Positions 361 to 49,851 of a DNA stretch of 64,000 nt are shown here, one piece after another. Below the pieces are notes generated by a model, which ran no database searches, was not told the origin of the DNA, and saw only the letters and a program-made list of their open reading frames with translations. How positions within the stretch are numbered: the first letter of the stretch is position 1; every line of letters starts with the position of its first letter. The stretch comes from Terrimicrobium sacchariphilum (GTDB lineage Bacteria > Verrucomicrobiota > Verrucomicrobiia > Chthoniobacterales > Terrimicrobiaceae), in NCBI RefSeq assembly GCF_001613545.1, contig NZ_BDCO01000002.1, positions 1,302,001-1,366,000 on the forward strand, given 5' to 3'. The position numbers and the translations under genes were made by a program.

Positions 361-3300
361 ATGAAGAGGAATCCCCTTTTTCCGCTTATCACCCTCCTGC
401 TGGGGCTGCTGACGACATTCCTGTCTCAGGCCTCGGCCAGCGCGGCTCCCACCGTGGCTCTCTCGGTCGAGAGTAAATGGGACTCCGGTTTTACCGGAAA
501 AGTCACCGTCTCGAACCCCGGCACGACGGCCATCAGTGGCTGGACGCTGGTATTTGACCTGAATCGCACGATCACGAGTTCGTGGAGTGCGGTACAGAAG
601 AGCAAGTCGGGCTCGACCTATACCTTCACCAACGAAAGCTGGACCGGCAACATCCCGGCTGGCGGCTCCGTTTCCTTCGGCATCCAGGTCGATGGTACGG
701 CCAAGGACGCACTGCTGACCAATGCCAAGTTGAACGGCTCCGCCATCGCCAGCTCGACCACCGGGAACACCAGTGGATCGACCACAGATAGCGGCAACGG
801 CTCGGGATCGTCGACCACCACACCTGACATCGTGCTGAATGCCGATGCGCAGGGCGAGGTGCTCCAGCTTTCCCAGGTCCCGGGCGTGCAGAGTTATCCG
901 TTCAAGAACACGGGTACCTATGCAGTCGTGTCGAACAACCCGGATGTCGCCGCGGCAGCCATCGTGAATGGCGCGCTCCAGATCACTGGCAAGAAGGCTG
1001 GTCGCGCCTCGGTGCGCATCAGCGAGTCCACATCGGGCAAGACGCGCGTCCTCGGCGTGCGGATCAACAACGCCGACGGCTCGGCTCCGGGCCTGCCGAA
1101 CTATCTCGCCATCGGCTCGGTGAGCGAAGACTCCACTGCGGATCTGAATTTCTGGTCCGACTTTGCCAACGCCGGGCAGAACAAGCGCGTCGACGTGCGC
1201 TACATCTACCTGAATGGCGGCGCCTCCAATAGCATCGGCGACGGATGGAACTGGCGCGTGCTCAATAACGGCCAGCGCGCCACGCGCTTCGTCGAGGAGA
1301 GCATCAAGCTCGGCATGATCCCGTACTTCGTCTGGTACAACATCCCCGATGGCGGTGAGAGCTACTACACCGACAAGGCGCACATCGAGTCCAAGACCTA
1401 TATGGAAGGCTACTTCGCCGACCTGCGTCACGCGCTGGAGATCACAAAGGAAGCCGCTGGCGATGAGCCCATCGGCTGGGTGCTGGAGCCGGACTTCCTC
1501 GGCTATTTCGCGCAAAACAACACCGGAACGCCCGATACCATCGTCGCACAGACCGACGCGGCCTACTCGAGTGGCGTGCTGGTGAAGGGCGTCGACCCGA
1601 CATTCCCCAACACCCTGCGCGGACTCGTCGAGGCGATCAACTACACCATTGGCAAATACCAGCCCAATGCCATCTTCGGCTGGCAGTTCAACCTCTGGGC
1701 TTCGCCTGCGGGCGGCTTCACCAATGCCGGCATCACCGGCAAGGGCATCGTGCGCCTCACGGATACACTCGGCCTGGCCAAGGGTCGCAATGCGATCTCC
1801 AACGAAGCCAAGGCCATCGCCAACTACTATGTGTCGGCGGGCATCCTGACCCATGGCGCGAAGTTCATCAGCATCGACAAATACGGCCTCGATGCGGGCT
1901 TTGAGAACAAGAACAGCGATCCTCAGCAGTCCACGTGGTTCTGGAATGCGACGCACTGGACGAATTACCTGATCTTCGTCAATGCGCTGCACAACGCCAC
2001 GCAGCTGCCTGTGACTCTGTGGCAGATCCCGGTGGGCCGCATCAACTCGACCACGGCGATCAGCCCGTACACGAATGCGAAGTTCCCGGATCTGACGAAC
2101 ACCACGCAGAACTACGAGGACTCGGCGTCCACGTACTTCTTCGGCGATACCTTCACCACGACGGGATCGCGCGCCACGTACTTCGGCACGACCGACGGCG
2201 GCCAGTCGCTGGTCAGCACGAGCGGGAGCAACCTCACCTGGGGTTCGCACCTGCAACTCGCCCGTGATGCCGGCGTGACCGTCGCGCTCTTCGGCCCCGG
2301 CGTGGGTGACAGCACCGACAACGTGGGCTCGGGCGAGAGCTACTACTGGATCAGCAAGGTGCAGAACTACTACAAGACCCCGGTTGCTCTCGTGAGTTCG
2401 CCTGCCGGTATTCCTCTGCCCGCTGATACGGGTGGAAGCACCGGCGGTAATACGGGCGGCTCGACCGGAGGCGGCACTGGCGGCTCGACGGGCGGGACCG
2501 ATTCCGGCTCGGCCTCGGTTGCGGCGGCCTTTGCGGTCGTGAGCGACTGGGGCAGCGGCTACACGGCCAATGTCACGCTGACCAACAACGGCACCGCTTC
2601 GGTGACCGGCTGGACGGTGAGCTTTGACCTCGGCGTACCGATCACCAGCTTCTGGAGCGCCAAGGGCTCGCAGAACGGCACGAAGGCGACCTTTACCAAC
2701 GAGTCGTGGAATGGCGTGATCGCCCCCGGCAAGTCGGTGACCTTCGGCATCCAGACCTCGTCGAGCGCGGACAAGACGGCGCAGAACTTCGTCATCAACG
2801 GCGCGGCGTCTTCGACCGGCAGCACGGGTGGAAGCACCGGAGGGTCGACTGGTTCGACCGGCGGCACCACCGGCGGAAGCACGGGAGGCACGACGGGCGG
2901 CAGTACGGATACCGGAGGCACAACCGGCGGAACCAGTGGTGGTTCGACCGGTGGTACTACTGGCGGAAGCACGGGCGGTTCGACCGGTGGAAGCACCGGA
3001 GGAACCACAGGCGGCTCGACGGGCGGTGGCAGCACCGCGACGGGCAGCGTGGCCTTTGCGGTCGCGAGCGACTGGGGCAGCGGCTACAGCGCCAATGTCA
3101 CGGTGACGAACAACGGCACGACCTCGCTCTCGAGCTGGACGGTGAGCTTCGACCTCGACGTTCCGATCACCAGCTTCTGGAGCGCGAAGGGCGGCACCAA
3201 GGTGGGCAACCGCTACACCTTCACCAATGAGTCGTGGAACGGCACCATCGCTCCCGGCAAGTCGGTGACCTTCGGCGTGCAGACCTCGTCGAGCGCGGAC

Positions 3301-31322: not shown

Positions 31323-32495
31323 CTATCCCGAGTGGAGGATATGCCGTGACCAACCGGAGCGACTGACAGGTGCTCTCAGGAGGGAAAGCAACTCCGGGAC
31401 AGGTTCCCATGGGTGGCTGCCGACATCGAGTCCCAGCGCAGTGTGGCCAGGCTCGATGGCGAGGCTGGTTGAAACCTGATGAATCGCTTCCACGTGTCGC
31501 GATGCTCGCTTGGCCGGGCAGGCTGATCGGCGTCGTTCTCTCGTGCATTCGATGACGGATGCGAGCATGCGCTCTCGATTGATTTCCTCGAGGTCCAGTC
31601 GCCACGTCGCGAGCCTTGCGCCGCGTTCATCGTACAGGACTGCACCTTCCTCCTGACGCCAGTGGAGGCAGCCCCTCTCGGCTTCAATTTGAATGACAGG
31701 ATTGACGTTTTCTGCCGCGGCGTGCGTGAGCAGACAACTGAGTTCGACCCCGGTTGAGGTCGTCATCTCGATATCCGCCGTGTCAAAAGTCTCGATCGGA
31801 AAAAAACGCAGGAGACGTCCGGAAACGCTCTCCACTACAGCATTATCGTCAGGCGATTCTGCGGCGAAAAATAGCGCGAGATTGAGAAAGTGAGCGAAAG
31901 CGTTATTCAGCGGGGAGTCGAAGACCGGCCTGCCATCGCAATGCGACCGGCCGGCCCAGCGGTTGCGCTGATAGTAGGAGGAGGTACGCGGCCAGCTTCC
32001 TTCGATCGTGATGCTGCGGATTTTGCCGATCACGCCCGCGTCGATGGTCGCCCGGATCTTGTGAACCTGCGGGGCATAGATGTCTTGAAAGCCGACAGAG
32101 ACCAACCGTCCCGAGGACTCTGCCGCCCGAATGATCGCCTTCGCCTCATTGACGCTTCCTGTCAGGGGTTTCTCCACCAGGACATCGCAGCCGGCGTCCA
32201 GCGCCGAGATCGTCATCGGAGCATGCTGATGAATGCTGGTGGGAATAATGCACAGATTGTTCCCTGGTACGACATCGGCCAGCATGGCGGAGTAGTCTGA
32301 ATATATCCGGCATCCCAAGCCTTCGAGCCTTCGGCAGGCATCGCTCTCTTCCTCCCGGTTGATGACTGTTGCGGAAGCCAGCCGGGCATTTGCGTGATCC
32401 AGCACCGAGAGCAGCGAGCGCAGCACGGCTCTCGCGTAGCCGGAGACCCCGATGAGGTGAAGCGAGACGGGCTTCGGATTTTCAGGAAGATTCAT
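31323..32495 (-). CDS. Gfo/Idh/MocA-family oxidoreductase
   Basis: 390-residue NAD(P)-dependent sugar dehydrogenase-like protein. A Rossmann start (HLIGVSGYARAVLRSLL), the family motif VEKPLTGS in DVLVEKPLTGSVNEAKAII and the following GFQDIYAP are visible. The usual GxGxxG is the variant GVSGYA. It is the third gene of a minus-strand operon (25-base gap) after a clan GH-A hydrolase and a lyase-like propeller, so it probably oxidises or rearranges a sugar released by them. Substrate unknown. Confidence 0.85.
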   Translation of the reverse strand: MNLPENPKPVSLHLIGVSGYARAVLRSLLSVLDHANARLASATVINREEESDACRRLEGLGCRIYSDYSAMLADVVPGNNLCIIPTSIHQHAPMTISALDAGCDVLVEKPLTGSVNEAKAIIRAAESSGRLVSVGFQDIYAPQVHKIRATIDAGVIGKIRSITIEGSWPRTSSYYQRNRWAGRSHCDGRPVFDSPLNNAFAHFLNLALFFAAESPDDNAVVESVSGRLLRFFPIETFDTADIEMTTSTGVELSCLLTHAAAENVNPVIQIEAERGCLHWRQEEGAVLYDERGARLATWRLDLEEINRERMLASVIECTRERRRSACPAKRASRHVEAIHQVSTSLAIEPGHTALGLDVGSHPWEPVPELLSLLRAPVSRSGWSRHILHSG

Positions 32496-32520: not shown

Positions 32521-35193
32521 TCAGGGTGCAGGCTGGGTGCGGATATAGATCGGGAACTTGGTGACGCGGGCCTGCTCGTAAGGAATCACGTTTCCCATCA
32601 GATCTTTTACCTCCGCGATGGCAGAGGCTGGATATACTTTGGACAGCGGAAGGTCGTCGGCCGACCAACAGGCTTCGATTGGGCCACTGGCCGCGCGGAA
32701 GCGCGCGATCTGGATCGTGACATCTCCTATCTTGCGGCTCTCGAATCCCTCCGGCGAGGCATCCTCGGTAAGGGCTACCATGGCGGCATGGGCAGCGATC
32801 CCCGGCCCGGGGATGCCGGTCACATCGATAAACCCGCAGGTGATGTCTTCGTGTACCTTGCGTCCTGCGGGACTGGTTCCGAGTTGGTAGTCGAAGTATC
32901 GCTTCACTCCGGATGCCTTGAAATAAAGCGCTGCCCGGACCATGGAGGCAGCCGCCTCGGAGGGAGTCACGGACGAAGAATGCGGCACGCGATAGGTTTC
33001 CAGCCAGCTCTGGCTGCCCTGGAGGAAAGCTCCACCCTCTGTATGCCAGAGCGGCATCGGGAGACCTTCTCGGTTGGAAAATGTCCGGTAGCGAGCGAGC
33101 AGGGGAGTGACATATGCGGTGTCAGGCGATCCGCCGCCTGCCTCCAGGCTGTAAAAATGAAATGAGAATGCATCGAGGAATCGGCCGGTTCCCATTTCCA
33201 GGATATCCCACCCGAGAGGCGCATTGATGCTGGCGAGAGCAGGTCCTATGAGGGTGGCTGGCTTGCCATTGGCATCGAGAGCTTCCCTGGTGGCCTGGAG
33301 GATTTGCGCATAGACAGTGGCCTTATCCTGACCGGGGCGGACACGCAGATAATCGCCATCCGGTTCGTTCCAGACCTCCCATGCATCCACCTGGGGGTAA
33401 AACGCATTGAAGCACCGTGTGACATATTCCTTCCAGCGTGCCATGTCGGCTGGAGGATAGCTGCGCGACCACCGGGGACGCTCGGGATCCTTGGGATTCA
33501 TGTCCGCGGCGAAGCTTGGAGCCGTCGCGAAAACGCCGAGCAACCGGAAACCTTCTCTGCGTGCGCGAGCTGCGCCCTCGGTCCGAAAATTCCATTGTCC
33601 AGGGTGATGTTCGACCGACATCCAGAGCGTGCTGAGCGGCGGATACAAACGCAGCCAGCGAAATCCTCCTTTGCGTGCGATTTCCAGATTGTAGTTGGTG
33701 AAGTCCACGTGACCGCCGAAGAAGGAATCAGGCCGGTCTCCGGGGGGAGGCAATGCGGGGAGCACGCTGTAGATTTGCTCGGCGGCAATCTCCGAGGGAG
33801 CGCTCTTCTGCCGCCCCTTTACGAGGCTCGTCATCCAGGCGAGGAATCCCGAGGTTTCGGTGTTGATCCGACGAGCCTCCAGCCGGAACGCTCCGAAGCG
33901 CTCTGTGGGTACGGTAAATGCCGACTCCCCGGCCCCGGTTTCATCCGGTTGAAGCTGCACGGTTTGCTGTGCGATCGGGCTGCCGGTGAAATCATACACG
34001 GTCACTTGATATTCCCCGGATTGACGAGGAGTCATACCCGCAGCCAGAAGGCGAAACCGTGCCGGTTGGTGCTGATCGTACAGATGGGCGACGGGAGCAT
34101 CGGCGGAAGGCTCGATGGCGAGGGATGCGGGGAAGAGTTCTTCGGGCGCCGTATCAGCTTCGACGATCGAAACGGCATCAAGGTCGTAACGACCGGAAGC
34201 ATTGAAGTCGAAGTCAATACAGTAGCTTCCGCCCGGGGCTGCCTTGAGCGTCACGGGCACCTCGTAGGTCTTCCACTGGGGCGTGGCCTTCAGCGTGGTA
34301 CGTCCGTCGAATCGTGTATTCGCATTCTTCCCCGACCCGATCGCCACTTGAAAATCCTTTTCACTGTCTGAGCGCAGGGAAAACGTCAGCCGCATGGGAT
34401 GGCCGTACCTCGCGGAGAAGTATCCCGACGAGAGCGTCGCCCGGCATTCCGGATCGACCTGCATGGATAGAAACTTGCTCCCATGGGGTGCATCGGGTTC
34501 GGAGCGGATATTCAGGACGGCGTCTTCTGGCGAAGGGCTGTTTGACCCGCTTTCCTCCCACGGTGTGCCAAACTCACGTTCGCGGAATGAAGCCGTCCAG
34601 CCGTCGCGCCCGACCTCGAAGGAACCGTTGCGTAGCGGACTGGCGACGGGCGGGGCTCCGCCCTCCACCCCGGGGAGTTCGACGATAGACACATCGTCGA
34701 TCCACACCTGGCCGGGGGCCTTGATCAGAAAGACGAGTTGGCAATTTCCCGCGTCTACTGTGGCGGGCAGCGTCATCGTATAGGCAAACTCCTGCCATTG
34801 CTCGACCGGCACCGATTCCGCCCGGAAATACGTGGGATACGGCTCGCTTCCTTTACGGAGAATGATGTGAAGGGGCGGGCCGTTGCTGATGCCCCGGGCC
34901 CAGTAGCTGATTCTGAGCGTCTGCCCCGCTTTGATCGCAAGCTGTGGATAAAAGAACTGCAGGGCCGAGCCGCCGATCGCCCGGCGAAAATGCATCTTGT
35001 AACTGAATGCTCCCGAGTGGGGGTTTACCGGGTCGCGTTCAAACCGGGCGTCATTTTTCAACCAGTTATTTTCCTGCCAGGGAGCACTTCCATTTTCAAA
35101 TCCCGGATTCGTGATCAGGTTTTCGCCAGCCGGGGAATGGGAAGCAATCAGGAACCACAAGCCGAGAAAGGCACCGAGGGAGAGTCTGTTCAT
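32521..35193 (-). CDS. Exported clan GH-A glycoside hydrolase (GH39-like) with two CBM4/9-like modules
   Basis: 890 residues with signal peptide (MNRLSLGAFLGLWFLIASHSPAG). Two jelly-roll carbohydrate-binding modules open with ENLITNPGFENGSAPWQ (about 23-180) and LRNGSFEVGRDGW (about 200-360). An Ig-like linker follows. The catalytic barrel (about 515-850) has the acid/base Glu610 in WEVWNEPDG and the nucleophile candidate Glu719 in PLWHTEGGAF, the arrangement of GH39/GH5-type retaining enzymes. The ATG at 35193 is chosen because the signal peptide starts there. Likely target: a beta-linked plant or algal polysaccharide. The GH39 label is by pattern only; another clan-A family is possible. Confidence 0.82.
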   Translation of the reverse strand: MNRLSLGAFLGLWFLIASHSPAGENLITNPGFENGSAPWQENNWLKNDARFERDPVNPHSGAFSYKMHFRRAIGGSALQFFYPQLAIKAGQTLRISYWARGISNGPPLHIILRKGSEPYPTYFRAESVPVEQWQEFAYTMTLPATVDAGNCQLVFLIKAPGQVWIDDVSIVELPGVEGGAPPVASPLRNGSFEVGRDGWTASFREREFGTPWEESGSNSPSPEDAVLNIRSEPDAPHGSKFLSMQVDPECRATLSSGYFSARYGHPMRLTFSLRSDSEKDFQVAIGSGKNANTRFDGRTTLKATPQWKTYEVPVTLKAAPGGSYCIDFDFNASGRYDLDAVSIVEADTAPEELFPASLAIEPSADAPVAHLYDQHQPARFRLLAAGMTPRQSGEYQVTVYDFTGSPIAQQTVQLQPDETGAGESAFTVPTERFGAFRLEARRINTETSGFLAWMTSLVKGRQKSAPSEIAAEQIYSVLPALPPPGDRPDSFFGGHVDFTNYNLEIARKGGFRWLRLYPPLSTLWMSVEHHPGQWNFRTEGAARARREGFRLLGVFATAPSFAADMNPKDPERPRWSRSYPPADMARWKEYVTRCFNAFYPQVDAWEVWNEPDGDYLRVRPGQDKATVYAQILQATREALDANGKPATLIGPALASINAPLGWDILEMGTGRFLDAFSFHFYSLEAGGGSPDTAYVTPLLARYRTFSNREGLPMPLWHTEGGAFLQGSQSWLETYRVPHSSSVTPSEAAASMVRAALYFKASGVKRYFDYQLGTSPAGRKVHEDITCGFIDVTGIPGPGIAAHAAMVALTEDASPEGFESRKIGDVTIQIARFRAASGPIEACWSADDLPLSKVYPASAIAEVKDLMGNVIPYEQARVTKFPIYIRTQPAP

Positions 35194-35219: not shown

Positions 35220-36461
35220 CTACAGCGTGCGCGAGATCAGCTCTCCGACCTCGACAAATGCGACGTCCACCCTCCCTCTCACATTGGTAGTATAGCAGAC
35301 AAAGCGATCCTGCAGGCAAAACTGAGGGTGGGGGTGAATATGATAGCGTGACAGCGAGGACGGGATCTGGTCGAGATGCGTCACGATCTCCACCTGTTTT
35401 CCGGTCGCCAGATTATAAAACAAGACCTGATGCTTGTCGGGCGCCTCCGGCGGCAACGCATCGGCCACCAGCCAGTTTTCCCCCCGATCGACATGGGCGT
35501 GAGAGAGCAGCGACTTTCGCCAGACGACTTCTTCTTCCCCACCTCCGACGGGCACTCGTGCCACCCCGGTACCATAATGGACATACCACACGTGCTGACC
35601 GTCAGCACTCCACCACTCGTGGCCAAGAAGGGCGCGTTCGTCGGAGATAATGCGGGCGGCGTCGTTGAAGTAATGCGGGTTGCCCCCGACCCGTCGTGGC
35701 GCGCTCGTCAAGGGAGTCGGAAAGATCGGGCATGCGGTGTGCCCCCGCCTGATGACCCACAGCCGGTTCTGATAGCCGATCGATTTGCCGCTGACCGGAT
35801 GAATCGAGTGATCCTGCGCGATCAATTGCAGATCGGGATCGACGGGGTTGAACTGGGCATGGTTGAAACACTGGTCAAACTTTTGCCAGAGCACGAAATC
35901 CCCTCCATCCAGCGGAAGGTGCCCGATGTACCACTCGGAGCCGATCTCGACGTCGATGTTCAGCGCCTGCCGGTCTGCGGAAAAGGTCAGGTGAGTCGCA
36001 AGGCGCCACGGACGACGATTGCTCGCTATCTCGGGTGGGAAGCGATTGACGAAGACGGGGACGGCATCCGGTTCCGGCCGGCGTTTCCAGATCTCCAGGC
36101 CCGAGCACCAGTACGCCTCGCCGGTACGCTCGTCGACAACCGGTGACGCATCGGTGAAGGCCGTCTCGGAAAAGTGGGTGAGCGTCTTTTGCCAGAGGTC
36201 CACCACGCCAAGCGAGCGCCCCTGATTTGCGCTCCCTGCCGGCGGGAATGCGCAGTAAAACCAGTAGTAGCGTCCATCGGAAGAGAAGCTTGTATTGACG
36301 AAATAAAAGCTCTGCTGAATGGGAGCCACCTGCCCGGCGAGGATGTGGCTGGTCACTCCACTGACCGGGTCGATCCATCGCTCAAACAAGGGAGAATCTA
36401 GCGGCAATGCCGGGTGAGGAGGATGAATATCCCGGATCGGGGAGGGACCTGAAGCTAACAT
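35220..36461 (-). CDS. Beta-propeller protein resembling oligogalacturonate lyase (PL22)
   Basis: 413 residues without signal peptide. Repeated blade-like strands (SFSSDGRYYWFYC, HLTFSADRQALNID, HEWWSADGQHVWYVH, and the final FCLQDRFVCYTTNVRGRVDVAFVEV) indicate a seven-bladed propeller. CFNHAQFNP, SHAHVDR and YHIHPHPQF supply the His residues that would hold the metal in PL22 oligogalacturonate lyases. The operon with a glycosidase and an oxidoreductase, in a genome fragment encoding galacturonate catabolism, supports a pectic-oligosaccharide role. It is a divergent member, so a different uronide or no catalysis remains possible. First gene of the LacI-flanked operon. Confidence 0.68.
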   Translation of the reverse strand: MLASGPSPIRDIHPPHPALPLDSPLFERWIDPVSGVTSHILAGQVAPIQQSFYFVNTSFSSDGRYYWFYCAFPPAGSANQGRSLGVVDLWQKTLTHFSETAFTDASPVVDERTGEAYWCSGLEIWKRRPEPDAVPVFVNRFPPEIASNRRPWRLATHLTFSADRQALNIDVEIGSEWYIGHLPLDGGDFVLWQKFDQCFNHAQFNPVDPDLQLIAQDHSIHPVSGKSIGYQNRLWVIRRGHTACPIFPTPLTSAPRRVGGNPHYFNDAARIISDERALLGHEWWSADGQHVWYVHYGTGVARVPVGGGEEEVVWRKSLLSHAHVDRGENWLVADALPPEAPDKHQVLFYNLATGKQVEIVTHLDQIPSSLSRYHIHPHPQFCLQDRFVCYTTNVRGRVDVAFVEVGELISRTL

Positions 36462-36507: not shown

Positions 36508-36520
36508 GTTAAGCGTTCAC
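36508..36520. promoter_or_regulatory. LacI operator candidate upstream of the propeller/hydrolase operon
   Basis: GTTAA-GCG-TTCAC is an imperfect 5-3-5 inverted repeat 46 bases before the propeller start. Its core TTAAGCGTT recurs (inverted) immediately upstream of the lacI gene at 37616-37628. Confidence 0.6.
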
Positions 36521-36537
36521 CAGTTTCTGGAAATCAA

Positions 36538-37614
36538 CTACGAGATCTTTCGCCGAACTCTTTCGCGCCAATCCTCTCGTTCCCGTTTCCACTCCGTAAA
36601 ATCCTCCACCCACTGGCCTTCGATGGAGATGATCTGAGGATGTGACGGCAGGCCGATTTCATTGCGCTGCAACTGGGCGACCAGGTGCTCGCAGGCGAGG
36701 CGACCGATGATTGGTGTCAGCTTGTCGATCCCATTGGCTCTTCCGTCGGTATAAGCGATATTCAGATTTGCGTAGCGGATATCCGAGGGAGGCTGTCTGC
36801 CGGTCACCTTCTCATAATCCACACAGAAGTCGCCAAATCCGGCACTTACCACGGCATCGGGACGCACTTTCTCCATCCATGCAGCCAGATTGCCTCGGCC
36901 ATCGGGAGAGAAGTTCACAGGCAGCCGCCGGCTTTTGGGCAGGTACTCCTGATGGCGTAGATAGGCGGAGTGCCATAGACCCAGCACCTTGGCGTCGTCC
37001 CCGCTGTTGGCATTGAGCGCGATGCGTTGGCACCCGGCGCGGGAAAGCCGTTCGAGCAGGGCCAACATCTCGTTGTAATGATTATTCGCCGCCCGGTGGA
37101 GAAGGGGAGATTGGAGCGAGTAGTCAAATGCGACTGCCGCAAAGTTCTTCCAATCGAGATCGAGTGAAACACCGAGCTTGTCGAATCCGCCGACGAGCAG
37201 TCCCCGGATGCCGCGGCTCACCAGCAGGCGGCTCATGCGGGCCGGCGTCATGTCTGGAGCCGAGAGATGAAATAAATCCAGGCGATAACCGAGCTCCAGC
37301 GCACGCTCGGCTGCACCCAGATAGTAATCATGGTGTGGCATCCAGTTCCACGCATCATAGGAAGGATAGCTGCTGAGATAAGCCAGCGTCTCCCGATATT
37401 CCGAGGCACCTTGCGCCCGCAGGTGCTGCATGAGCGTGGCGATCTTTGGGTCGGGATGATAGTCGAGGCGCTTCGCGATCTGTTGGACCTTGAGGCGCGT
37501 TGCAGCCGAGATGCGCGGGTTGTTGCGCAATGCCAGCGATGCTGCGGCCAGGGAGAGTCCTGCTTCGCGAGCAATGTCACGCAACGTTGGCCGAGAGGAA
37601 CCGGAGGAAGGCAT
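36538..37614 (-). CDS. LacI-family transcriptional regulator
   Basis: 358 residues. The N-terminal helix-turn-helix (TLRDIAREAGLSLAAASLALRNNPRISAATRLKVQQIAKRLDYHPDP) is followed by a periplasmic-binding-like sensor domain that senses a sugar. Related inverted repeats lie directly before its own start and 18 bases beyond its stop codon, ahead of the propeller/hydrolase/oxidoreductase genes. It is also divergent from the PEP-CTERM/LamG/pseudopilin genes. It therefore probably controls both sides and itself. Confidence 0.93.
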   Translation of the reverse strand: MPSSGSSRPTLRDIAREAGLSLAAASLALRNNPRISAATRLKVQQIAKRLDYHPDPKIATLMQHLRAQGASEYRETLAYLSSYPSYDAWNWMPHHDYYLGAAERALELGYRLDLFHLSAPDMTPARMSRLLVSRGIRGLLVGGFDKLGVSLDLDWKNFAAVAFDYSLQSPLLHRAANNHYNEMLALLERLSRAGCQRIALNANSGDDAKVLGLWHSAYLRHQEYLPKSRRLPVNFSPDGRGNLAAWMEKVRPDAVVSAGFGDFCVDYEKVTGRQPPSDIRYANLNIAYTDGRANGIDKLTPIIGRLACEHLVAQLQRNEIGLPSHPQIISIEGQWVEDFTEWKREREDWRERVRRKIS

Positions 37615-37615
37615 A

Positions 37616-37628
37616 GTTAACGCTTAAG
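37616..37628. promoter_or_regulatory. LacI operator candidate at the lacI start
   Basis: TTAA-CGC-TTAA (37617-37627) is a perfect inverted repeat that begins three bases before the lacI start codon, in the 78-bp gap shared with the divergent PEP-CTERM gene. The reverse complement reads TTAAGCGTTAA, matching the site at 36508 in eleven of thirteen positions including flanks. Confidence 0.65.
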
Positions 37629-37692: not shown

Positions 37693-38442
37693 ATGAAACA
37701 CACCTTCCTGCTGCCCGTTGTTGCTCTTTTCACCCTGGCTTCGGCTCCTGCTGTCCATGCGCAGCTCATCACCTCCGTGTCGAGCACGGCCCCCGCGACG
37801 GATGTCGCCATTAGTTTTACCACGGCAAACTATTCTGCCACCTCCGTAAACACGGTCGGCATGGGGTGGAAGGGCGATACGGGAAGCCGTCGGGACATGG
37901 GACAAACCTTCACGACGACAACCTCGTTCCTTCTGGATCGCATCACTGTGCAACTGCAATTCGTTGGCACGAGCGCTCCTGGTGCGAATTACTCTCTGTC
38001 TCTGTACGAGTTCCCTTCGGCTGGAAGCCTCACTGCTTCGAGCACGGTGGGTACCTGGACCGGGACGCTGCCGGGTTCGTCGACTCTCGCTCCGGCGACA
38101 TATACGTTTAGTAATGGCACGGTCGGTCCATTCCTGACCTTCGACATGCCTAATGTGACTTTGTCAGCCAGTACGACCTATGGCTTTGTTTTGAGCTTCA
38201 CCACGCTGGCCAGCAACGAGTCGCTGAATTTCTGGACCAAGGGCGGCGGCGCCTACGCGGGGGGCCAGCAGATCCAGACGGGTACGGCAGGGGCGACGAC
38301 GTTCACCTCCAGCGGTAATGATGTGCTGTTTTACGTTCAGGCTGTGCCGGAGGGCTCGACTTTTGCGATGGTCTTGGGGGGCGCTCTTCTCTTATTCTGG
38401 GTTCGCCGTCTTCGCCGTACCGCATCCCCCGCCTCCCGGTAA
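37693..38442 (+). CDS. PEP-CTERM exported surface protein
   Basis: 249 residues. A signal peptide ends at VHA (about residue 22). The C-terminus has the sorting tail VPEGSTFAMVLGGALLLFWVRRLRR: motif, hydrophobic helix and basic end, here VPEG instead of the usual VPEP. The body is Thr/Ser-rich with beta-strand character and no recognised domain. Such proteins are trimmed by an exosortase-type enzyme and released or anchored at the surface. It is divergent from lacI across the operator and heads a run of three exported or pilus-like proteins. Confidence 0.88.
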   Translation: MKHTFLLPVVALFTLASAPAVHAQLITSVSSTAPATDVAISFTTANYSATSVNTVGMGWKGDTGSRRDMGQTFTTTTSFLLDRITVQLQFVGTSAPGANYSLSLYEFPSAGSLTASSTVGTWTGTLPGSSTLAPATYTFSNGTVGPFLTFDMPNVTLSASTTYGFVLSFTTLASNESLNFWTKGGGAYAGGQQIQTGTAGATTFTSSGNDVLFYVQAVPEGSTFAMVLGGALLLFWVRRLRRTASPASR

Positions 38443-40087: not shown

Positions 40088-41572
40088 CTATGGCAACGCA
40101 GCCTTTGCTCCTTGAACGAGGATTTTTTCGAGATCGGCAGCCACGGCTTTCGTCAGCCCTGGAACGTCGTTGAGATCCTTGCTGTTCCAGAGCGCTGAGT
40201 GGCCGAGGACGGCCTTGGTGACGGCTTCGGCGGAGGTGTCGGGACGCGTCCAGACATCGCGGAAGAACTCCAGCACCTCGGGGCTGTCCTTGATCGGGTA
40301 GGCTCCATCCTTGGCGCGAGTACCGATGAGCGCGCCGTCCGCGATCTCGGTGCCGCGATAGAAGGCGACGAGAGCCGCCAGAGAATAGACCAGCCGCGCG
40401 GGCAGCTTGCCCCGCCGGTCGAGATAGGTGAGCAGCGAGGGCAGCACGCGGGCGGTGAACTTGCTCGTGGAGTTGAGCGAGATGCTGAGCAGCGGATGCT
40501 TGACGAAGGGATTGGCAAAACGCTCCAGCACGGCGGCGGCGAAGGCATCGAGATCCGAGCGTGGCAGGTCGAGGGTGGGGATGATCTCCTCGTTGAGCGC
40601 ATCGCGCAGGAAGCTGGCAAACGCCGGATCGTCGAGGCACTCCTTTACCAGGTCATGCCCGGCGAGAAAGGCGGCGAGGACGGTGGAGGTGTGCGCGCCG
40701 TTGAGGATGCGCACTTTGCGATCCCGATAGGGTTTGTAGTCCCGGGTGAAAATGACGTTGAGGCCCGCCTTGTCGAGCGGCAGTTCCTCCGCCAGCGAGG
40801 CAGGACCTTCGATCACCCAGGCGTGGAAGACTTCCGAAGTGTTGAGCAGCGTATCCTCGTAGCCAAGCTTGGCGCAGATTTCCGCCGCTTCTTCGCGCGG
40901 GTAACCTGTCACGATGCGATCGACGAGCGTGTTGCAGAAAACGACGTGCGTCTCGATCCAGGAAATCATGGCGGCATCGAGTTCCCATTTAGCCGCGGTC
41001 TCCAGCACGCAGCGCCGGAGGTTGGTTCCGTTGAACTCGATCAGTTCGCAGGGGAGGATGACGAGCCCGCTTTCCGCCGTGCCGCCAAAGGCCTGAAAAC
41101 GCTCCAGCAGCAGACGGGTCAGCTTGCCGGGAAACGAGACCGGCGGCTGCGCGTCGATGCGGTCATCTGGGTGGCAGGCAATACCGGCCTCGGTGGTGTT
41201 CGAGACGACGAAGCGCAGGTCAGGATTGCGGGCGGTGGCGAGGAAGGCATCGAAGTCCGCGAAAGGGTTGATTCCGCGCCGGATGGAGCCGACGACCTCG
41301 GTCTCCTCCACCAGCTTTCCGTCGACCACGCCGCGCAGGATGTGGGTGAAAAGCCCGTCCTGCGCGTTGAGCGCGTCGACGAGGCCATTGGCCAGCGGCT
41401 GAACCACCACGACCGACCCGTCGAAAAGCGCCTGCTTGTTGAGCTGGTGCACCATCCAGTCGACGAATCCCCGGAGGAATGCGCCTTCGCCGAATTGCAG
41501 GATGCGTTCCGGGCGGGTGTTGGTTGGGATGTCGAGGGTGGCGGCGTTCAGCTTGGGCAGGGGCGAGGACAT
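40088..41572 (-). CDS. uxaB: Tagaturonate reductase (altronate oxidoreductase)
   Basis: 494-residue member of the mannitol dehydrogenase family. It reduces D-tagaturonate to D-altronate with NADH. Landmarks are RILQFGEGAFLRGFVDWMV at the start, SNTTEAGI, CELIEFNGTNLRRCV, FCNTLVDRIVTGYP, KVRILNGAHTSTVL and FANPFVKHPLLSISLNSTSKF, all typical of UxaB. It is the third gene of the minus-strand kdgK-uxaA-uxaB unit, 32 bases after uxaA. Together with uxaC at 11448 it gives the galacturonate branch to altronate. No mannonate pathway genes (uxuA/uxuB) are seen here. Confidence 0.94.
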   Translation of the reverse strand: MSSPLPKLNAATLDIPTNTRPERILQFGEGAFLRGFVDWMVHQLNKQALFDGSVVVVQPLANGLVDALNAQDGLFTHILRGVVDGKLVEETEVVGSIRRGINPFADFDAFLATARNPDLRFVVSNTTEAGIACHPDDRIDAQPPVSFPGKLTRLLLERFQAFGGTAESGLVILPCELIEFNGTNLRRCVLETAAKWELDAAMISWIETHVVFCNTLVDRIVTGYPREEAAEICAKLGYEDTLLNTSEVFHAWVIEGPASLAEELPLDKAGLNVIFTRDYKPYRDRKVRILNGAHTSTVLAAFLAGHDLVKECLDDPAFASFLRDALNEEIIPTLDLPRSDLDAFAAAVLERFANPFVKHPLLSISLNSTSKFTARVLPSLLTYLDRRGKLPARLVYSLAALVAFYRGTEIADGALIGTRAKDGAYPIKDSPEVLEFFRDVWTRPDTSAEAVTKAVLGHSALWNSKDLNDVPGLTKAVAADLEKILVQGAKAALP

Positions 41573-41604
41573 GGTCGGGTTATTCCGTGGGGAGCGGTGG
41601 GTTT

Positions 41605-43119
41605 CTAGAGAGTCACGCCGTCTTTCCAGATGGCGATTTCGCGGTGGCCGCGGGTTTCGTTGCGGGTATGGGCTTCGCCCGAGGCGATGGCCACAATCTG
41701 TCGCCAGAGTTGCTCGGTGAGCTCGGGAAAGTCAGCCGTGCCGTCGGCCACGGGACCGGCGCTGAAGTCGATCCAGTGCGGCTTGCGTGTGGCGAGGTCG
41801 GAGTTGCTGGAGATTTTCACCGTCGGGACCGGGAAGCCCATCGGGTTGCCTCGGCCTGTGGTGAAAAGCAGGATGTGCGCTCCGGCGATGGTCATGGCCG
41901 TGCCGGAGACTCCGTCGTTGCCAGGACCCTGGAGCAGGGAAAGGCCGCCGAGTCCGGGATTCGCCGTGGCTCCGTAAGGAAGCACCTGGCGCACCGGGGC
42001 CTGTCCGCCCTTTTGCACACAGCCGAGGGATTTGTCGGCCAGTGTGGTGATGCCGCCCGCCTTGTTGCCCGGGGACGGGTTTTCATCGATGGGCTCGTTG
42101 TGCTTCTGGAAATAGGCGCGGAAATCATTGACCAGGTCGATGACGCCATTGAAGACGCTTTCGTCGCTGGTGCGCTCGAGCAGCATCCGCTCCGCGCCGA
42201 ACATCTCGGGCACCTCGGTGAGGAGCACGGTGCCGCCATGGGACGTATGGAGGTCCGCGATGCGGCCCACCAGCGGGTTGGCCGTGATGCCGGAGAAGCC
42301 ATCGGAACCGCCGCACTTCATGCCCAGGATCAGCTCGGAAACCGGAATCGGCTCGCGCCGGAACTGGCGCACATAGTCGGCCAGCTCCCGCACCGCCTCG
42401 ATGCCGGACTCGATCTCATCCGTCACCTGCTGGGCGTTGAACCAGCGGATGCGCTCGGCAGCCTGCGGACCGACGACTTCCAGGAAGTCGTTCATCTGAT
42501 TGTTCTCGCATCCCAGACCGAGCACGAGGACGGCGGCGGCATTGGGATGGCGGACCAATCCCGCGAGTACCTTCTGGGTGTGCTGGAGGTCGTCGCCGAG
42601 CTGGGAGCAGCCAAAGGGATGGCTGAAGGTGTAAACACCGTCGATGCCCGAGCCGGGCGTCGCCAGTTCCGCATGGGCGGCCGCCGCGATCTTCTCGGAG
42701 GCGATATTGACGCATCCCACCGTGTTGACGATCCAGATTTCATTCCGGGTCGCGGCGCGGCCATCGGGTCGTCGGTATCCTAGGAAGGTTTCCTGCGTCT
42801 CGCTTTCCGAGCGGGAAGCGTGCTGAGGCTTGGCGACTTCAGCGTAGCGCAGGTCGGAGAGCTTTTCCGCCAGGTTGCCCCGGACGTTGTGGCTGTGCAC
42901 ATGGACCCCGGCGGGAATGGCTTCCGAGGCGACGCCGATCGGGTAGCCGTACTTGATCACCGGCTCGCCCACCGCGATCGGGCGGATGGCGAGCTTGTGA
43001 CCGGCCGGGATGGGTTCGGTGGCAGGGACTCCGTCGTAGGTGTCGCCCTGCGCGGCAGCGCGCAGAGCGACGACGACGTTGTCCGACGGATGGATTCGCA
43101 GGAAGACCGGTGCGGACAT
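41605..43119 (-). CDS. uxaA: Altronate dehydratase
   Basis: 504-residue dehydratase converting D-altronate to 2-keto-3-deoxygluconate. Both family parts are present: an N-terminal SAF-type segment (VFLRIHPSDNVVVAL, VHVHSHNVRGNL) and the main part with GYRRPDGRAATRNEIWIVNTVGCVN, FSHPFGCSQLGDD, LGCENNQ, ILGMKCGGSDGFSGITANPLVG and GGNPxxNKxGG-like SPGNKAGGI. Its metal site is iron or manganese dependent in known members. The gap to the kdgK gene is 13 bases and to uxaB 32 bases, so it lies mid-operon. Confidence 0.95.
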   Translation of the reverse strand: MSAPVFLRIHPSDNVVVALRAAAQGDTYDGVPATEPIPAGHKLAIRPIAVGEPVIKYGYPIGVASEAIPAGVHVHSHNVRGNLAEKLSDLRYAEVAKPQHASRSESETQETFLGYRRPDGRAATRNEIWIVNTVGCVNIASEKIAAAAHAELATPGSGIDGVYTFSHPFGCSQLGDDLQHTQKVLAGLVRHPNAAAVLVLGLGCENNQMNDFLEVVGPQAAERIRWFNAQQVTDEIESGIEAVRELADYVRQFRREPIPVSELILGMKCGGSDGFSGITANPLVGRIADLHTSHGGTVLLTEVPEMFGAERMLLERTSDESVFNGVIDLVNDFRAYFQKHNEPIDENPSPGNKAGGITTLADKSLGCVQKGGQAPVRQVLPYGATANPGLGGLSLLQGPGNDGVSGTAMTIAGAHILLFTTGRGNPMGFPVPTVKISSNSDLATRKPHWIDFSAGPVADGTADFPELTEQLWRQIVAIASGEAHTRNETRGHREIAIWKDGVTL

Positions 43120-43132
43120 GGCAGGTTGGCGC

Positions 43133-44230
43133 TTAGCGCACCACGCGGGCTCCGCCGCCCTTCATGAGCTTCTCGACTTCCTTGCGGGTTGCCATCGAGG
43201 TATCGCCCGGGGTGGTCGAGGCAAACGCGCCATGGGCCGCGCCGTAGTCGACCGCGAGCTGCGGGTCGTTGAACTCCATGAAGCCAAACTGCAGGCCCGA
43301 GGCGAAGGAGTCGCCGCCGCCGACGCGGTCGAGGATTTCCAGCTCCGGGTACTTGCGGCTTTCGTGGAACTGTCCATCGTGCCAGAGGATGGCCGACCAG
43401 TCGTTCTTCGTGGCGGTGATGACGCGGCGCAGCGTGGTGGCAGCGACCTTGAAGTTCGGGAACTCCGCCACCGCCGTCTCGATCATGGCCTTGAAGGCGT
43501 CGATCTCGATCTTGGAGAGGTTGTGGTCCGCGCCCTTTACCTCAAAGCCGAGGGAGGCCGTGAAGTCCTCTTCGTTGCCGATCATCACGTCGACGTACTT
43601 TGCGATCTCGCGGTTGACCTCCTGGGCCTTGGCGAGGCCGCCGATCGACTTCCAGAGCGACGGACGGTAGTTGAGATCGTAGGAAACGATCACCCCATGC
43701 TTCTTGGCGGCCTTCACCGCCTCGATGGTCAGCTCAGCCGTGGTGGACGAGAGCGCGGCAAAGATGCCGCCCGTGTGGAACCAGCGGGAGCCGAGTGTGC
43801 CAAAGATGTAGTCCCAGTCGAAGTCACCGGGCTTGAGCTGCGAGGCGGCCGTGTTGCCGCGATCCGGCACGCCCACCGCGCCGCGAATGCCATAGCCGCG
43901 CTCGGTGAAGTTCAGGCCATTGCGGACAGTGCGGCCGATGCCGTCGTCATCGCGCCACTTGATGAAATCGGTGGCGACGCCGCCTTGCATGATGAAGTCC
44001 TCGACGAGGTGGCCGACTTCGTTGTCGACGAAGGCCGTGCAGACGGCCGTCTTGTAGCCGAAGCACTTGCGCAAGCCGCGCGAGGTGTTGTATTCGCCGC
44101 CGCCCTCCCAGGCGGTGAAGGAACGGGCGGTGCGCACGCGTCCTTCGCCGGGATCGAGGCGAAGCATGACTTCACCCAGGGAAACTTGGTCGAATACCGT
44201 AGACTTTGCAGGTTTGAGAGGAAGGCTCAT
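43133..44230 (-). CDS. kdgK: 2-keto-3-deoxygluconate kinase (PfkB family)
   Basis: 365-residue PfkB kinase that phosphorylates 2-keto-3-deoxygluconate to KDPG. Landmarks are GEVMLRLDPGEGRVRTA, GGEYNTSRGLRKCFGY, WFHTGGIFAALS, SYDLNYRPSLW, MIGNEEDF and the catalytic end RVGGGDSFASGLQFGF with the base Asp (usual GAGD is GGGD here). It is first in the operon with uxaA and uxaB, which gives the assignment. KDPG aldolase, the next step, is not in the window. The second PfkB gene at 7184 is a separate paralogue. Confidence 0.9.
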   Translation of the reverse strand: MSLPLKPAKSTVFDQVSLGEVMLRLDPGEGRVRTARSFTAWEGGGEYNTSRGLRKCFGYKTAVCTAFVDNEVGHLVEDFIMQGGVATDFIKWRDDDGIGRTVRNGLNFTERGYGIRGAVGVPDRGNTAASQLKPGDFDWDYIFGTLGSRWFHTGGIFAALSSTTAELTIEAVKAAKKHGVIVSYDLNYRPSLWKSIGGLAKAQEVNREIAKYVDVMIGNEEDFTASLGFEVKGADHNLSKIEIDAFKAMIETAVAEFPNFKVAATTLRRVITATKNDWSAILWHDGQFHESRKYPELEILDRVGGGDSFASGLQFGFMEFNDPQLAVDYGAAHGAFASTTPGDTSMATRKEVEKLMKGGGARVVR

Positions 44231-46241: not shown

Positions 46242-47219
46242 CTATCTCCGGCGGGCGTCGTCAGATGGCAGGGTGCCAAAATACTGTCGGTAGCTCGCCG
46301 AAAACCGCCCGAGATGACTGAACCCCCAGGCTGTCGCAATGTCGGTGACACCGCGTCTCTTGCGTCGGAGCAGTTCTCGCCGCACTCCGGCCAGCCGCAC
46401 GGCAAGCAGGTACTTCATCGGAGAGGTGCCATAGACTTCGAGGAATCCCAAGTGCAGGGTTCGGCGGCTTGATCCCACAGCCTCGCAAAGATCGCCGATG
46501 CTGAGTTCCTCATGGCAGCGTTCGTGGATCACATTTGCTGCTCGACGCGCCAGCCAGCGCCGCGCGATGGCGCCATCCGGCGGCCGGGGTTCTTCCAGGT
46601 TGCAGAGCAGGGCGTTCAGGAGATCTTCCTCCATGGCTTGGCCCCGCTGTGGACTGGAGAGCCCACTACCGGCAGAGGTCGCATTTTCGATGGCTTCGCA
46701 AAGAAACTGATTCACCTGCGCGGCGCGTTCGGTCGAGGTAAACTGCAACGTGCGGGTGAGCAACCGGCTGGCATCGGTCTGCCAGAGTTGGGAAAGGCGG
46801 GTGCGGATCAGTTCCTGGCTGACGGCCACGCTGATGATCTCCATCTCCTCCGCATAGGAAATATCGAGACCATTGACGCAGTCCTGGCAGATCAGGTCGC
46901 GGGCTTCGATTGGCGCACCGTGAAATTGCATCACCCGTCCGCGCGTCACCGGAGTCGCCAGGATGACCGTGCCCGGAGGGATCTCTCCATCGAGGCGGGA
47001 ATTGTTTTTATGCCGGACCCTGCTGACCTGCATGCGTGTCGTATGAAAGGCGACGAGGTCACAGTGGTATCTCTGTCTGCCCAGTTGGGTGACCTTGAGA
47101 TTCCAAAACTTAGCCATCTCCTCCATTTCGTCGGGGCTGGACGGCGACTCTCTTAAAATCAAACCCGCCGGGAAAGGCCCGTCTGCAGCGCCGGTTTCTT
47201 CGGGAATGAGGTTTTGCAC
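46242..47219 (-). CDS. AraC-family transcriptional regulator
   Basis: 325 residues from a GTG at 47219. The N-terminal sensor part shows a cupin-like strand set; the last 100 residues contain the double helix-turn-helix (LSIGDLCEAVGSSRRTLHLGFLEVYGTSPMKYLLAVRL; VTDIATAWGFSHLGRFSASYRQYFGTLPS). It is divergent from the arylsulfatase at 47308 with 88 bp between starts, so it probably activates the sulfatase-DUF1254-barrel operon. Confidence 0.92.
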   Translation of the reverse strand: MQNLIPEETGAADGPFPAGLILRESPSSPDEMEEMAKFWNLKVTQLGRQRYHCDLVAFHTTRMQVSRVRHKNNSRLDGEIPPGTVILATPVTRGRVMQFHGAPIEARDLICQDCVNGLDISYAEEMEIISVAVSQELIRTRLSQLWQTDASRLLTRTLQFTSTERAAQVNQFLCEAIENATSAGSGLSSPQRGQAMEEDLLNALLCNLEEPRPPDGAIARRWLARRAANVIHERCHEELSIGDLCEAVGSSRRTLHLGFLEVYGTSPMKYLLAVRLAGVRRELLRRKRRGVTDIATAWGFSHLGRFSASYRQYFGTLPSDDARRR

Positions 47220-47307: not shown

Positions 47308-49851
47308 ATGAAGTCCATTTACCTGCCTGATAGTATCCTGGAAGCCTGCCGTCAGTATCTCGGCTTTGGAGTGCTCGCCGCGTCTCTTTCCCTCGCCCAT
47401 GCGGAGACGCCGTCTCCCACGCCTCTCCAGACGACCGGGGTTTCCGGCTCCCCGAGTGCGACGACGACGATCAGCAACGCCCAACTCCCGGCGCCGGATC
47501 CCAAGTTTGGCGGGGTGATCAAGCAGGACGCTCTCCAATCCAAACCCTGGTGGGCGCCTCGCATCGTTCCGCCTAAGCAGGCCCCCAACATCCTTCTCAT
47601 CATCACCGACGATGCCGGGTTTGGCGTACCGAGCACCTTTGGCGGCGTGATCCCGACCCCGACGATGGATCGGGTGGCCAATAATGGCCTGCGGTATAAC
47701 AATATCAACTCGACGGCACTCTGCTCGCCGACCCGCGCGGCGCTGATCACGGGGCGCAATCACCATTCGGTGGGGTTCGGCGTGATCTCCGAGCAGTCGA
47801 CGGGCTTCCCCGGCTACAACAGCATCATCACCAAGGACAAGGCCACCATCGGGCGCATCCTCCTGGATAACGGCTATGCCACGGCATGGTTCGGCAAGGA
47901 TCACAATACCCCCGCCTTTGCCGCCAGCCAGGTAGGGCCTTTCGACCAGTGGCCGACGGGCATGGGCTTTGAGTATTTCTATGGTTTTGTCGGCGGCGAC
48001 GCCAACCAGTGGCAGCCAAATCTCTTCCGCAACACGACTCAGATCTATCCCTTTCAGGGCAAGCCAGACTGGAACCTCATCACCGGCATGGCTGACGACG
48101 CGATCGACTACATCAATCGCGTCAACCAGATCGATCCCGCCAAGCCCTTCTTTATCAAATACGCGCCTGGCGCGACCCACGCCCCGCATCACCCGACGAA
48201 GGAGTGGGTCGACAAGATCACGGCGATGCACCTCTTCGACGATGGCTGGAACAAGCTTCGCGATCGCATCTTTGAAAACCAGAAGCGCCTCGGCGTGATC
48301 CCGCAGAATACGCAGTTGGAACCCTGGCCCGCCAATGTCATCAAGAACTGGGACGACTGTACGCAGGAGGAAAAGAAACTCTATGTCCGGCAGGTTAATG
48401 TTTTTGCCGCTTATGCCGCCTACAACGATCACGAGATCGGCCGCGTCATTCAGACCATTGAGGACATCGGCAAGCTCGACAATACGCTCATCATTTACAT
48501 CAACGGCGACAATGGAACGAGTGCCGAGGGCGGACCGCTGGGCACGCCCAACGAAGTCGCTTTCTTTAATGGCGTAAGCGTTCCCGTGGCCGAACAGATG
48601 AAGTGGTATGACGTGTGGGGTACCGAGCAGACCTACAACCACATGTCGGCCGGTTGGTCGTGGGCGTTTGACACGCCGTTTACCTGGTTCAAGCAGAACG
48701 CCTCCCGGCTGGGCGGCGTACGGCAAAACATGGCCATCTCCTGGCCCGCCCGCATCACGGACAAAGGTGCTTTGCGACAGCAGTTCTGTCACGTGATCGA
48801 TGTCGTGCCGACCCTGCTGGAGGTCACAGGCATCCAGCCGCCGGATTATGTCGATGGCATCAAACAGTCGCCGATCGAGGGCACGAGTTTTGCCTATACC
48901 TTCGATGCGAAAAACGCCAATGCGCCTTCCCAACACAAGGTGCAATACTTTGAAATGATGGGCCAGTGGTCGATCTACGATGACGGTTGGCTCCTGAGTA
49001 CAAAGGTGAACCGCGCGCCATGGGATGCGTTTGGCCCGGCGAATACGGACCCTCTGAATAATCAGGTCCTGGAACTCTATAATCTGAACGAAGATTTCAG
49101 CCAGTCGCAGGATTTGGCCGCCAAGTACCCGGACAAAGTTGCGGAACTGAAAAAGGTCTTCATCCAGGAAGCGGAGAAATATCAGGTTTTCCCGTTGGAC
49201 GCCTCGGTGGCGGCACGCATCGTTGCGCCACGTCCTAATATCACCGCCGGACGCACGGAGTTTAACTACACCGTACCGATGACCGGACTGCCGCAGGGTG
49301 ATTCGCCATTCATCCTGAATACCTCGTACTCGATCACCGCGGATGTCACCGTGCCGGAAGGCGGCGGCGATGGCATGATCGTCACGTCGGGCGGCCGGTT
49401 TGGCGGCTATGGCTTCTACCTCCTGAAAGGCAAGCCGGTATTCCTCTGGAATCTCGTCGATCTCAAGCGCATCAAATGGGAGGCACCCGACGTCCTGGCT
49501 CCAGGACGGCACGTGCTCGAGTATGATTTTGCTTATGACGGCATGGGTGCAGGCACGCTGGCCTTCAATAGTTTCAGCGGCGTCGGGCGCTCCGGCACCG
49601 GTACCCTGAAGGTCGATGGCAAGGAAGTGCAAACCATCAAAATGGAACAGACGCTTCCGATGATTCTGCAGTGGGACGAATCGTTCGATGTCGGGTCGGA
49701 TACCCTTACCGGAGTGAACGATGCTGATTACCTGCCGCCCTTTCCGCTCACGGCAAAGCTTAACAAGGTGTCGATCAAGGTTGATCGTCCCCAACTGACT
49801 CCTGCTGACGAAAAGCGCCTGATGGAGGCTGCTTCAAAGGCGGGTGACTAG
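47308..49851 (+). CDS. Large Cys-type arylsulfatase, exported
   Basis: 847 residues with an N-terminal hydrophobic stretch (YLGFGVLAASLSLAHA) that looks like a signal peptide. The sulfatase core has LLIITDDAGFG (metal DD), Cys139 in LCSPTRAALITGRNHH (formylglycine site, CSPTR), FGKDHN (usual GKWH), and INGDNGTSAEGG. Overall it resembles the roughly 800-residue Pseudomonas/rhizobial arylsulfatases with a C-terminal beta domain (about 650-847). Maturation would use the anSME at 8350. A 140-bp gap separates it from the DUF1254 gene; the following barrel gene is a paralogue of the one next to the other sulfatase. Substrate: a sulfate ester, aryl or glycan, not determined. Confidence 0.92.
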   Translation: MKSIYLPDSILEACRQYLGFGVLAASLSLAHAETPSPTPLQTTGVSGSPSATTTISNAQLPAPDPKFGGVIKQDALQSKPWWAPRIVPPKQAPNILLIITDDAGFGVPSTFGGVIPTPTMDRVANNGLRYNNINSTALCSPTRAALITGRNHHSVGFGVISEQSTGFPGYNSIITKDKATIGRILLDNGYATAWFGKDHNTPAFAASQVGPFDQWPTGMGFEYFYGFVGGDANQWQPNLFRNTTQIYPFQGKPDWNLITGMADDAIDYINRVNQIDPAKPFFIKYAPGATHAPHHPTKEWVDKITAMHLFDDGWNKLRDRIFENQKRLGVIPQNTQLEPWPANVIKNWDDCTQEEKKLYVRQVNVFAAYAAYNDHEIGRVIQTIEDIGKLDNTLIIYINGDNGTSAEGGPLGTPNEVAFFNGVSVPVAEQMKWYDVWGTEQTYNHMSAGWSWAFDTPFTWFKQNASRLGGVRQNMAISWPARITDKGALRQQFCHVIDVVPTLLEVTGIQPPDYVDGIKQSPIEGTSFAYTFDAKNANAPSQHKVQYFEMMGQWSIYDDGWLLSTKVNRAPWDAFGPANTDPLNNQVLELYNLNEDFSQSQDLAAKYPDKVAELKKVFIQEAEKYQVFPLDASVAARIVAPRPNITAGRTEFNYTVPMTGLPQGDSPFILNTSYSITADVTVPEGGGDGMIVTSGGRFGGYGFYLLKGKPVFLWNLVDLKRIKWEAPDVLAPGRHVLEYDFAYDGMGAGTLAFNSFSGVGRSGTGTLKVDGKEVQTIKMEQTLPMILQWDESFDVGSDTLTGVNDADYLPPFPLTAKLNKVSIKVDRPQLTPADEKRLMEAASKAGD

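Follow-up and report, generated by a model that had tools for sequence, protein, structure and literature searches.

A conserved pair of candidate operators brackets a LacI-family regulator gene in Terrimicrobium sacchariphilum

Introduction

Which genes are controlled by a LacI-family regulator whose own gene lies between a lyase-like operon and a divergent set of surface-protein genes? The question is raised by a locus of Terrimicrobium sacchariphilum, lying within the 64,000-nucleotide stretch of DNA analyzed here (the window). The regulator gene, lacI (36538-37614, minus strand), encodes 358 amino acids, and its helix-turn-helix (HTH), at residues 10-55, scored 49.8 bits against PF00356 (cut-off 27). 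An original prediction from the DNA letters had placed a related core in both gaps around this gene, and had suggested that one regulator acts at both.

Results

Two Related Sites Flank lacI

The first site, O1 (37617-37627, minus strand), reads TTAAGCGTTAA on the lacI strand, i.e., a perfect TTAA-GCG-TTAA. It lies inside the 78-bp gap between lacI and the divergent PEP-CTERM-type gene, and 2 bp separate it from the lacI ATG (37614-37612); the perfect copy is therefore as originally described (TTAA-CGC-TTAA on the other strand), although its distance from lacI is two bases rather than three. An in-frame TAA within O1, together with an HTH that starts as early as residue 10, means that the start of lacI cannot be further upstream and that O1 truly abuts it. 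The second site, O2 (36509-36519, plus strand), has the core TTAAGCGTTCA inside GGTTAAGCGTTCACC. It is 47 bp upstream of the ATG of the gene for a β-propeller protein, where a second copy had indeed been predicted.

Within the window, TTAAGCGTT matched twice, at 36509-36517 (plus strand) and 37619-37627 (minus strand), which confirms a related core in both gaps. The number of matches expected was 0.13, and two were reached by 1 of 100 shuffles. When up to one mismatch was allowed, O1 and O2 were still the only sites in the window. A genome scan, proposed along with the original prediction, covered 4,751,807 bases in three contigs (the window comes from contig 2). It yielded exactly two matches to TTAAGCGTTNA, both in the gaps bordering lacI, while the reversed pattern, used as a control, gave three. 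The AACGCT/AGCGTT inverted repeat of the O1 gap was absent from the gaps of congeners, and a scan for consensus sigma-70 promoters gave no hits, 0.7 being expected.

The Site Pair Accompanies lacI in Six Genomes

With the LacI protein as query, we searched a set of 384 genomes from the class, itself taken from a larger group, and obtained matches with E ≤ 1e-40 in 108 of them. A clear ortholog was present in six genomes including that of T. sacchariphilum itself (G000), all at 52% identity or above: G287 (91%), G194 (89%), G089 and G131 (63% each) and G230 (55%). The next best match was 37% identical. The PF00356 profile matched five of five orthologs, and a helix with the pattern SLxAxSxALRN was kept in the five that were aligned. 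A periplasmic-binding-protein-like effector domain, as usual in the family, could not be clearly recognized: Peripla_BP_3 and Peripla_BP_1 matched one of the five each, weakly (E = 0.013 and 0.14, respectively), and for all 16 PDB sequences matched by a profile of the orthologs, the best alignment was restricted to the HTH region.

The motif TKAAGCGTTMA was found before and after lacI at every ortholog locus, i.e., in 12 of 12 gaps, whereas it occurred at none of the 24 loci encoding LacI homologs of 34-39% identity, which were all the further loci returned by the protein search (with flanks of about 1.5 kb to either side, one locus being shorter). This lends considerable weight to the proposal that a single regulator acts in both gaps. 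All 12 copies carried a GCG triplet between the half-sites. In G230 both sites read TGAAGCGTTCA, and in G089 and G131 O1 was TTAAGCGTTCA and O2 was TGAAGCGTTCA. Their placing was equally constant: at all six loci O1 was 1-2 bp from the lacI ATG, and O2 was 47-55 bp from the next start codon, including that of an MGH1-like hydrolase in G230.

Comparison of the gaps of G000, G131 and G230 with one another gave the operator as the best ungapped 15-mer in six of six pairs. In five of these pairs a fraction of 0.01-0.045 of 200 shuffles reached the score of the match, the match between the downstream gaps of G000 and G131 not being significant alone (0.15). When the O1 gap of a genome was compared with its own reversed O2 gap, the operator was again the best match in G000 (0.02) and G131 (0.025), but in G230 the best match was a different one (0.315, 200 shuffles). 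Footprints carry little weight within the genus, where lacI of the congeners is 89%-91% identical and much upstream sequence is conserved as well.

Could O1 and O2 be a short, AT-rich word that recurs by chance? A palindrome search did not by itself single out O1 (p = 0.59), within a single genome it is ordinary for 10-11 of 13 bases to recur close to a lacI gene, and 13-mers up to about 1.4 kb from the start of lacI recurred no better than at random places. However, chance does not account for a word that occurs exactly twice in 4.75 Mb, and it is contradicted by the ortholog comparison, in which 12 of 12 gaps kept the site even at 52%-63% protein identity; we consider its probability negligible. 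The weight of the case for O1 and O2 lies in their genome-wide rarity together with their conservation across species.

Over the six ortholog genomes TKAAGCGTTMA occurred 27 times, 12 of these being the sites in the gaps flanking lacI. The remaining 15 were elsewhere, and a listing of the open reading frames (ORFs) around all 15 showed that several overlapped long ones. One extra pair, common to G089 and G131, was within an ORF, towards its 5′ end. Another site, common to the three Terrimicrobium genomes, was a copy of TGAAGCGTTCA inside the tmRNA gene (locus L142, 1471-1824; identified by ARAGORN in T. sacchariphilum, and by alignment in the other two), and since it sits within that gene it needs no regulator to explain it.

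The Sites Persist Where the Neighboring Genes Differ

The order lacI-propeller-hydrolase, with the divergent PEP-CTERM-type gene, was found in five of the six genomes, T. sacchariphilum included. At the G230 locus the divergent side instead carried a different, 282-codon ORF, together with one of pseudopilin type and one whose pectate-lyase-like match was below threshold, and the downstream side carried the MGH1-like hydrolase gene followed, on the opposite strand, by one for a URO-D protein. Of all the arguments for assigning the sites to this LacI, the strongest is that G230 keeps the regulator and both operators while most of the putative targets differ.

The genome contains 44 genes with a LacI-type HTH above the family cut-off, and the binding of this particular LacI to O1 and O2 is a prediction, so that a different transcription factor might own both sites, with lacI merely lying between them. 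Against this, the sites track this lacI lineage in six of six orthologs, even where the neighbors differ, and are missing from all 24 loci of other LacI homologs. We therefore give ownership by another factor very little credence, and the assignment of O1 and O2 to this LacI, made by comparing sequences, appears well supported.

Genes Next to O1 and O2

On the lacI strand, O2 is followed by three closely spaced genes. The first (35220-36461, minus strand) encodes a β-propeller protein resembling oligogalacturonate lyases of family PL22. A structural model built with 15 sequences (pLDDT 85) superimposed on the solved structures 3pe7 (Z = 34.0, rmsd 3.0, 341 aligned residues) and 3c5m (Z = 33.3), while the best match outside PL22 had a Z score of 22.5. 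Foldseek matches to oligogalacturonate lyases had E values of 5e-17 to 9e-17 and TM scores of 0.69-0.70 on the query, and the sequence profile of the propeller matched 3pe7 with E = 4.1e-6. (The query used for alignment and modeling omitted the first Met, with no effect on the result.) The propeller shares only about 17% identity with the PL22 enzyme and fell below the cut-off of Pfam PF14583 (16.5 versus 30 bits), although HEFW-like and HPHP stretches were retained in the profile alignment. The His residues of HEWW, SHAH and HPHP in the propeller aligned with His residues of 3pe7, while a Tyr took the place of the Gln in the 3pe7 stretch RQVTHPHP; we take these His and Gln positions of 3pe7 to be the catalytic His and metal ligands of PL22. 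The predicted fold is thus that of a PL22 oligogalacturonate lyase, and the protein is best termed lyase-like. A literature search on PL22 and manganese gave nothing useful.

The second gene (32521-35193, minus strand), 26 bp after the propeller gene, encodes a glycoside-hydrolase-like protein with a signal-peptide-like start and a CBM_4_9 match. It probably combines this CBM4_9 module with a catalytic domain of clan GH-A: it contains WNEP and TEGG motifs, which we took as pointing to that clan, and gave a weak match to PslG (E = 0.006). The model of the domain was of low confidence (pLDDT 42), and its profile matched none of the PDB sequences at E = 0.01. (The hydrolase query in the profile searches began one codon before the ATG, without effect on the result.) The third gene (31323-32495, minus strand), a further 25 bp downstream, encodes an oxidoreductase of the Gfo/Idh/MocA type (PF01408, 58.8 bits). 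It was kept at two of the six loci (G000 and G287), and was unmatched at the fetched loci of G194, G089, G131 and G230; in G089 and G131 the place after the hydrolase gene is taken by a pseudopilin-like ORF.

On the other side of lacI, the divergent gene (37693-38442, plus strand) encodes a PEP-CTERM-type surface protein with a weak match to NF038129 (27.1 bits, against a cut-off of 65). It is followed after 20 bp by a gene for a LamG protein (Laminin_G_3, PF13385; 38463-39296, plus strand) and, after another 20 bp, by one for a pseudopilin-like N-methylation protein (PF07963 and TIGR02532; 39317-40018, plus strand). The LamG gene, and with it the entire trio, occurred at three of the six loci (G000, G194 and G287), and was unmatched at those of G089, G131 and G230.

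For the propeller gene and the PEP-CTERM-type gene, both the position of the site and the gene order kept in five of six genomes argue for control by this LacI. The oxidoreductase gene and the second and third surface genes, which the original prediction had placed in the same regulon, may share in this control by virtue of their 20-26 bp spacing.

A Model for Regulation

Because the paired sites persist in relatives despite differing neighbors, the most likely arrangement, as judged from comparative genomics, is that LacI controls its own gene, the pectin-lyase-like cluster and the surface-protein cluster. Autoregulation was no part of the original prediction; however, lacI itself heads the operon next to O1, so that O1 would also be an autoregulatory site. 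In the model that we consider likely, LacI binds two GGTKAA-GCG-TTMACC-like sites bracketing its own gene and, when free of ligand, represses from both. At O1, adjacent to its own start codon, it would block lacI and the PEP-CTERM, LamG and pseudopilin genes, while at O2 it would block those for the PL22-like propeller, the hydrolase and the oxidoreductase; binding of a ligand, probably an oligosaccharide, would release it. Presumptive parts of this model are the binding itself, a sign that is repressive rather than activating, a ligand of uronate type and how far the transcripts reach.

Two variants differ in what the bound protein would do. With two sites per locus in six of six genomes, about 1.1-1.2 kb apart, LacI might loop the intervening 1.1 kb of DNA in T. 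sacchariphilum instead of acting at two independent operators. However, the centre-to-centre spacing differs among the six genomes (1108, 1107, 1107, 1099, 1099 and 1202 bp), and each site is positioned for its own gene start. Because the spacing varies, looping is possible but not indicated, and we think it rather unlikely. Alternatively, LacI might activate at O2 and repress only at O1, because a site 47 bp before the gene could be upstream of its promoter (none was located there by the consensus scan). Most characterized LacI-family proteins of local sugar regulons are repressors, and we attach only a slender chance to activation, preferring repression at two independent sites.

What might the ligand be? 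Beyond the surface genes, at 40088-44230 on the minus strand and outside the putative regulon, are genes for a PfkB kinase, a member of the altronate/galactarate dehydratase family and a tagaturonate reductase. The reductase scored above its cut-off, while the best matches of the kinase, which were KDG-kinase-like, were below theirs. These neighbors fit a uronate theme, and we infer that the ligand may derive from pectin or be a uronate. We go no further than this, because the window scan allowing up to one mismatch found no operator copy at these uronate-type genes, and none of them was matched in the fetched G089 and G131 loci. Elsewhere in the window, a large ORF of 847 amino acids (47308-49851), divergent from an AraC-type regulator gene (46242-47219), resembles an arylsulfatase, judging from its CSPTR motif.

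Other LacI Paralogs

The T. sacchariphilum genome yielded 45 LacI matches in all, 44 being above the family cut-off, and the three Terrimicrobium genomes contain 44, 50 and 43 LacI genes. Might the members of this expansion be local switches insulated from one another, each with a private operator, often abutting the start codon and confined to the gaps of its own cluster? One other paralog, L023 (C2:2295676), gave a clear candidate. The word TCAAACTGTTGA, two bases abutting its start region, had six exact matches in the genome, and four of these, together with two having one mismatch, were within 13 kb around the gene. The six TCAAWCTGTTGA sites there are at positions 3063, 3149, 8819, 8870, 14092 and 16042 of locus L284 (G000 C2:2292500-2311500), one of them directly before the ATG of L023. 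When mapped onto the ORFs, four of these sites were in gaps; the remaining two preceded the first ATG of an ORF, at its 5′ end when the earliest TTG is taken as the start. These sites are a candidate for a second private operator set.

When 12-mers in the gaps of 20-kb loci were scored, the own locus was strictly highest for two of the 44 regulators, clearly for L023 and weakly for L026. The mean was 0.89 at the own locus and 0.45 elsewhere, with a large share of the excess coming from L023. This test is weak for regulators with one extra site, since the lacI gene of O1 and O2 was not among the strictly highest. Recurrence of 13-mers at the own locus averaged 10.5 of 13 bases, compared with 10.7 at random places, and the words abutting the starts of L001 and L007 occurred once each in the genome, barring the reverse-strand copy of a palindrome. 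For just one of the 44 LacI starts was the best upstream palindrome with 8-bp arms better than shuffles at p ≤ 0.05.

We also made two exploratory tests, selected after looking at the data, on the 44 paralogs and 20 of the 24 distant loci (four without an ATG near the HTH were dropped). Perfect 6-bp arms with a gap of 0-4 occurred in the last 26 nucleotides before the start in 6 of 64 cases, compared with 0-5 of 64 in five more distant intervals, and GTTA/TAAC was found near LacI starts 22 times, 7.8 being expected. Perfect 6-bp-arm palindromes in the last 26 nucleotides were seen for L006, L007, L013, L029, L045 and L075, several being centered on CAG or CTG. Separately, the distant homolog L063 (in G030) has TTGAACAGTTCA directly before its ATG (about 1487-1497), sharing the odd-centered layout of O1 but with a different centre.

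Private operators as a general rule are a lead rather than a result, because the survey of 44 paralogs was clearly positive for L023 only, and we hold the idea of insulated switches as a tentative one, somewhat less probable than its converse. If it were true, private operators would amount to a natural code that relates recognition helices to operators, and the L023 cluster suggests that the set of LacI paralogs could serve to read it.

Discussion

The Escherichia coli lac operator O1 is an odd pseudo-palindrome with GTGA and GTTA half-sites, near the transcription start. The sites described here share the odd, pseudo-palindromic form and half-sites of this kind, but the target genes are unrelated, and the recognition-helix residues are Leu-Ala in place of the Tyr17-Gln18 of E. 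coli LacI. In a full-text literature search, whose coverage took in few of the subscription papers, we found no operator or regulon study for a LacI of the Verrucomicrobiota. The present pair is well conserved, and offers a candidate operator for one LacI-family regulator of this group, which is rich in LacI genes. It also connects the regulator with a cluster of PL22-like lyase type and with a surface protein of PEP-CTERM type, so that the induction of polysaccharide degradation becomes directly testable in a cultivated soil bacterium.

The broadest basis for comparison is a survey of 1303 LacI regulators (Ravcheev et al., 2014; PMC4052901), whose main text does not mention the Verrucomicrobia. 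As summarized there, 1251 of the regulators had even palindromes, mostly with a central CG, odd palindromes accounting for 4%; more than 75% of sites were 140 to 30 bp before the start; and 72% of regulators were autoregulated, a local regulator with autoregulation being the commonest state. Like the local sugar regulons described in that text, the T. sacchariphilum locus has a LacI-type HTH, a near-palindromic site and few targets, with a site upstream of the regulator and another upstream of adjacent catabolic genes. It differs in the 3-bp GCG centre and imperfect symmetry of the site, where the usual, although not obligatory, form is even and CG-centered, and in the position of O1, which abuts the start codon and is thus outside the usual -140 to -30 zone. 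On the sequence evidence, the regulator would be an autoregulated local one with an uncommon site centre and an uncommon O1 position: a circuit of a normal kind, well resolved in a little-studied phylum.
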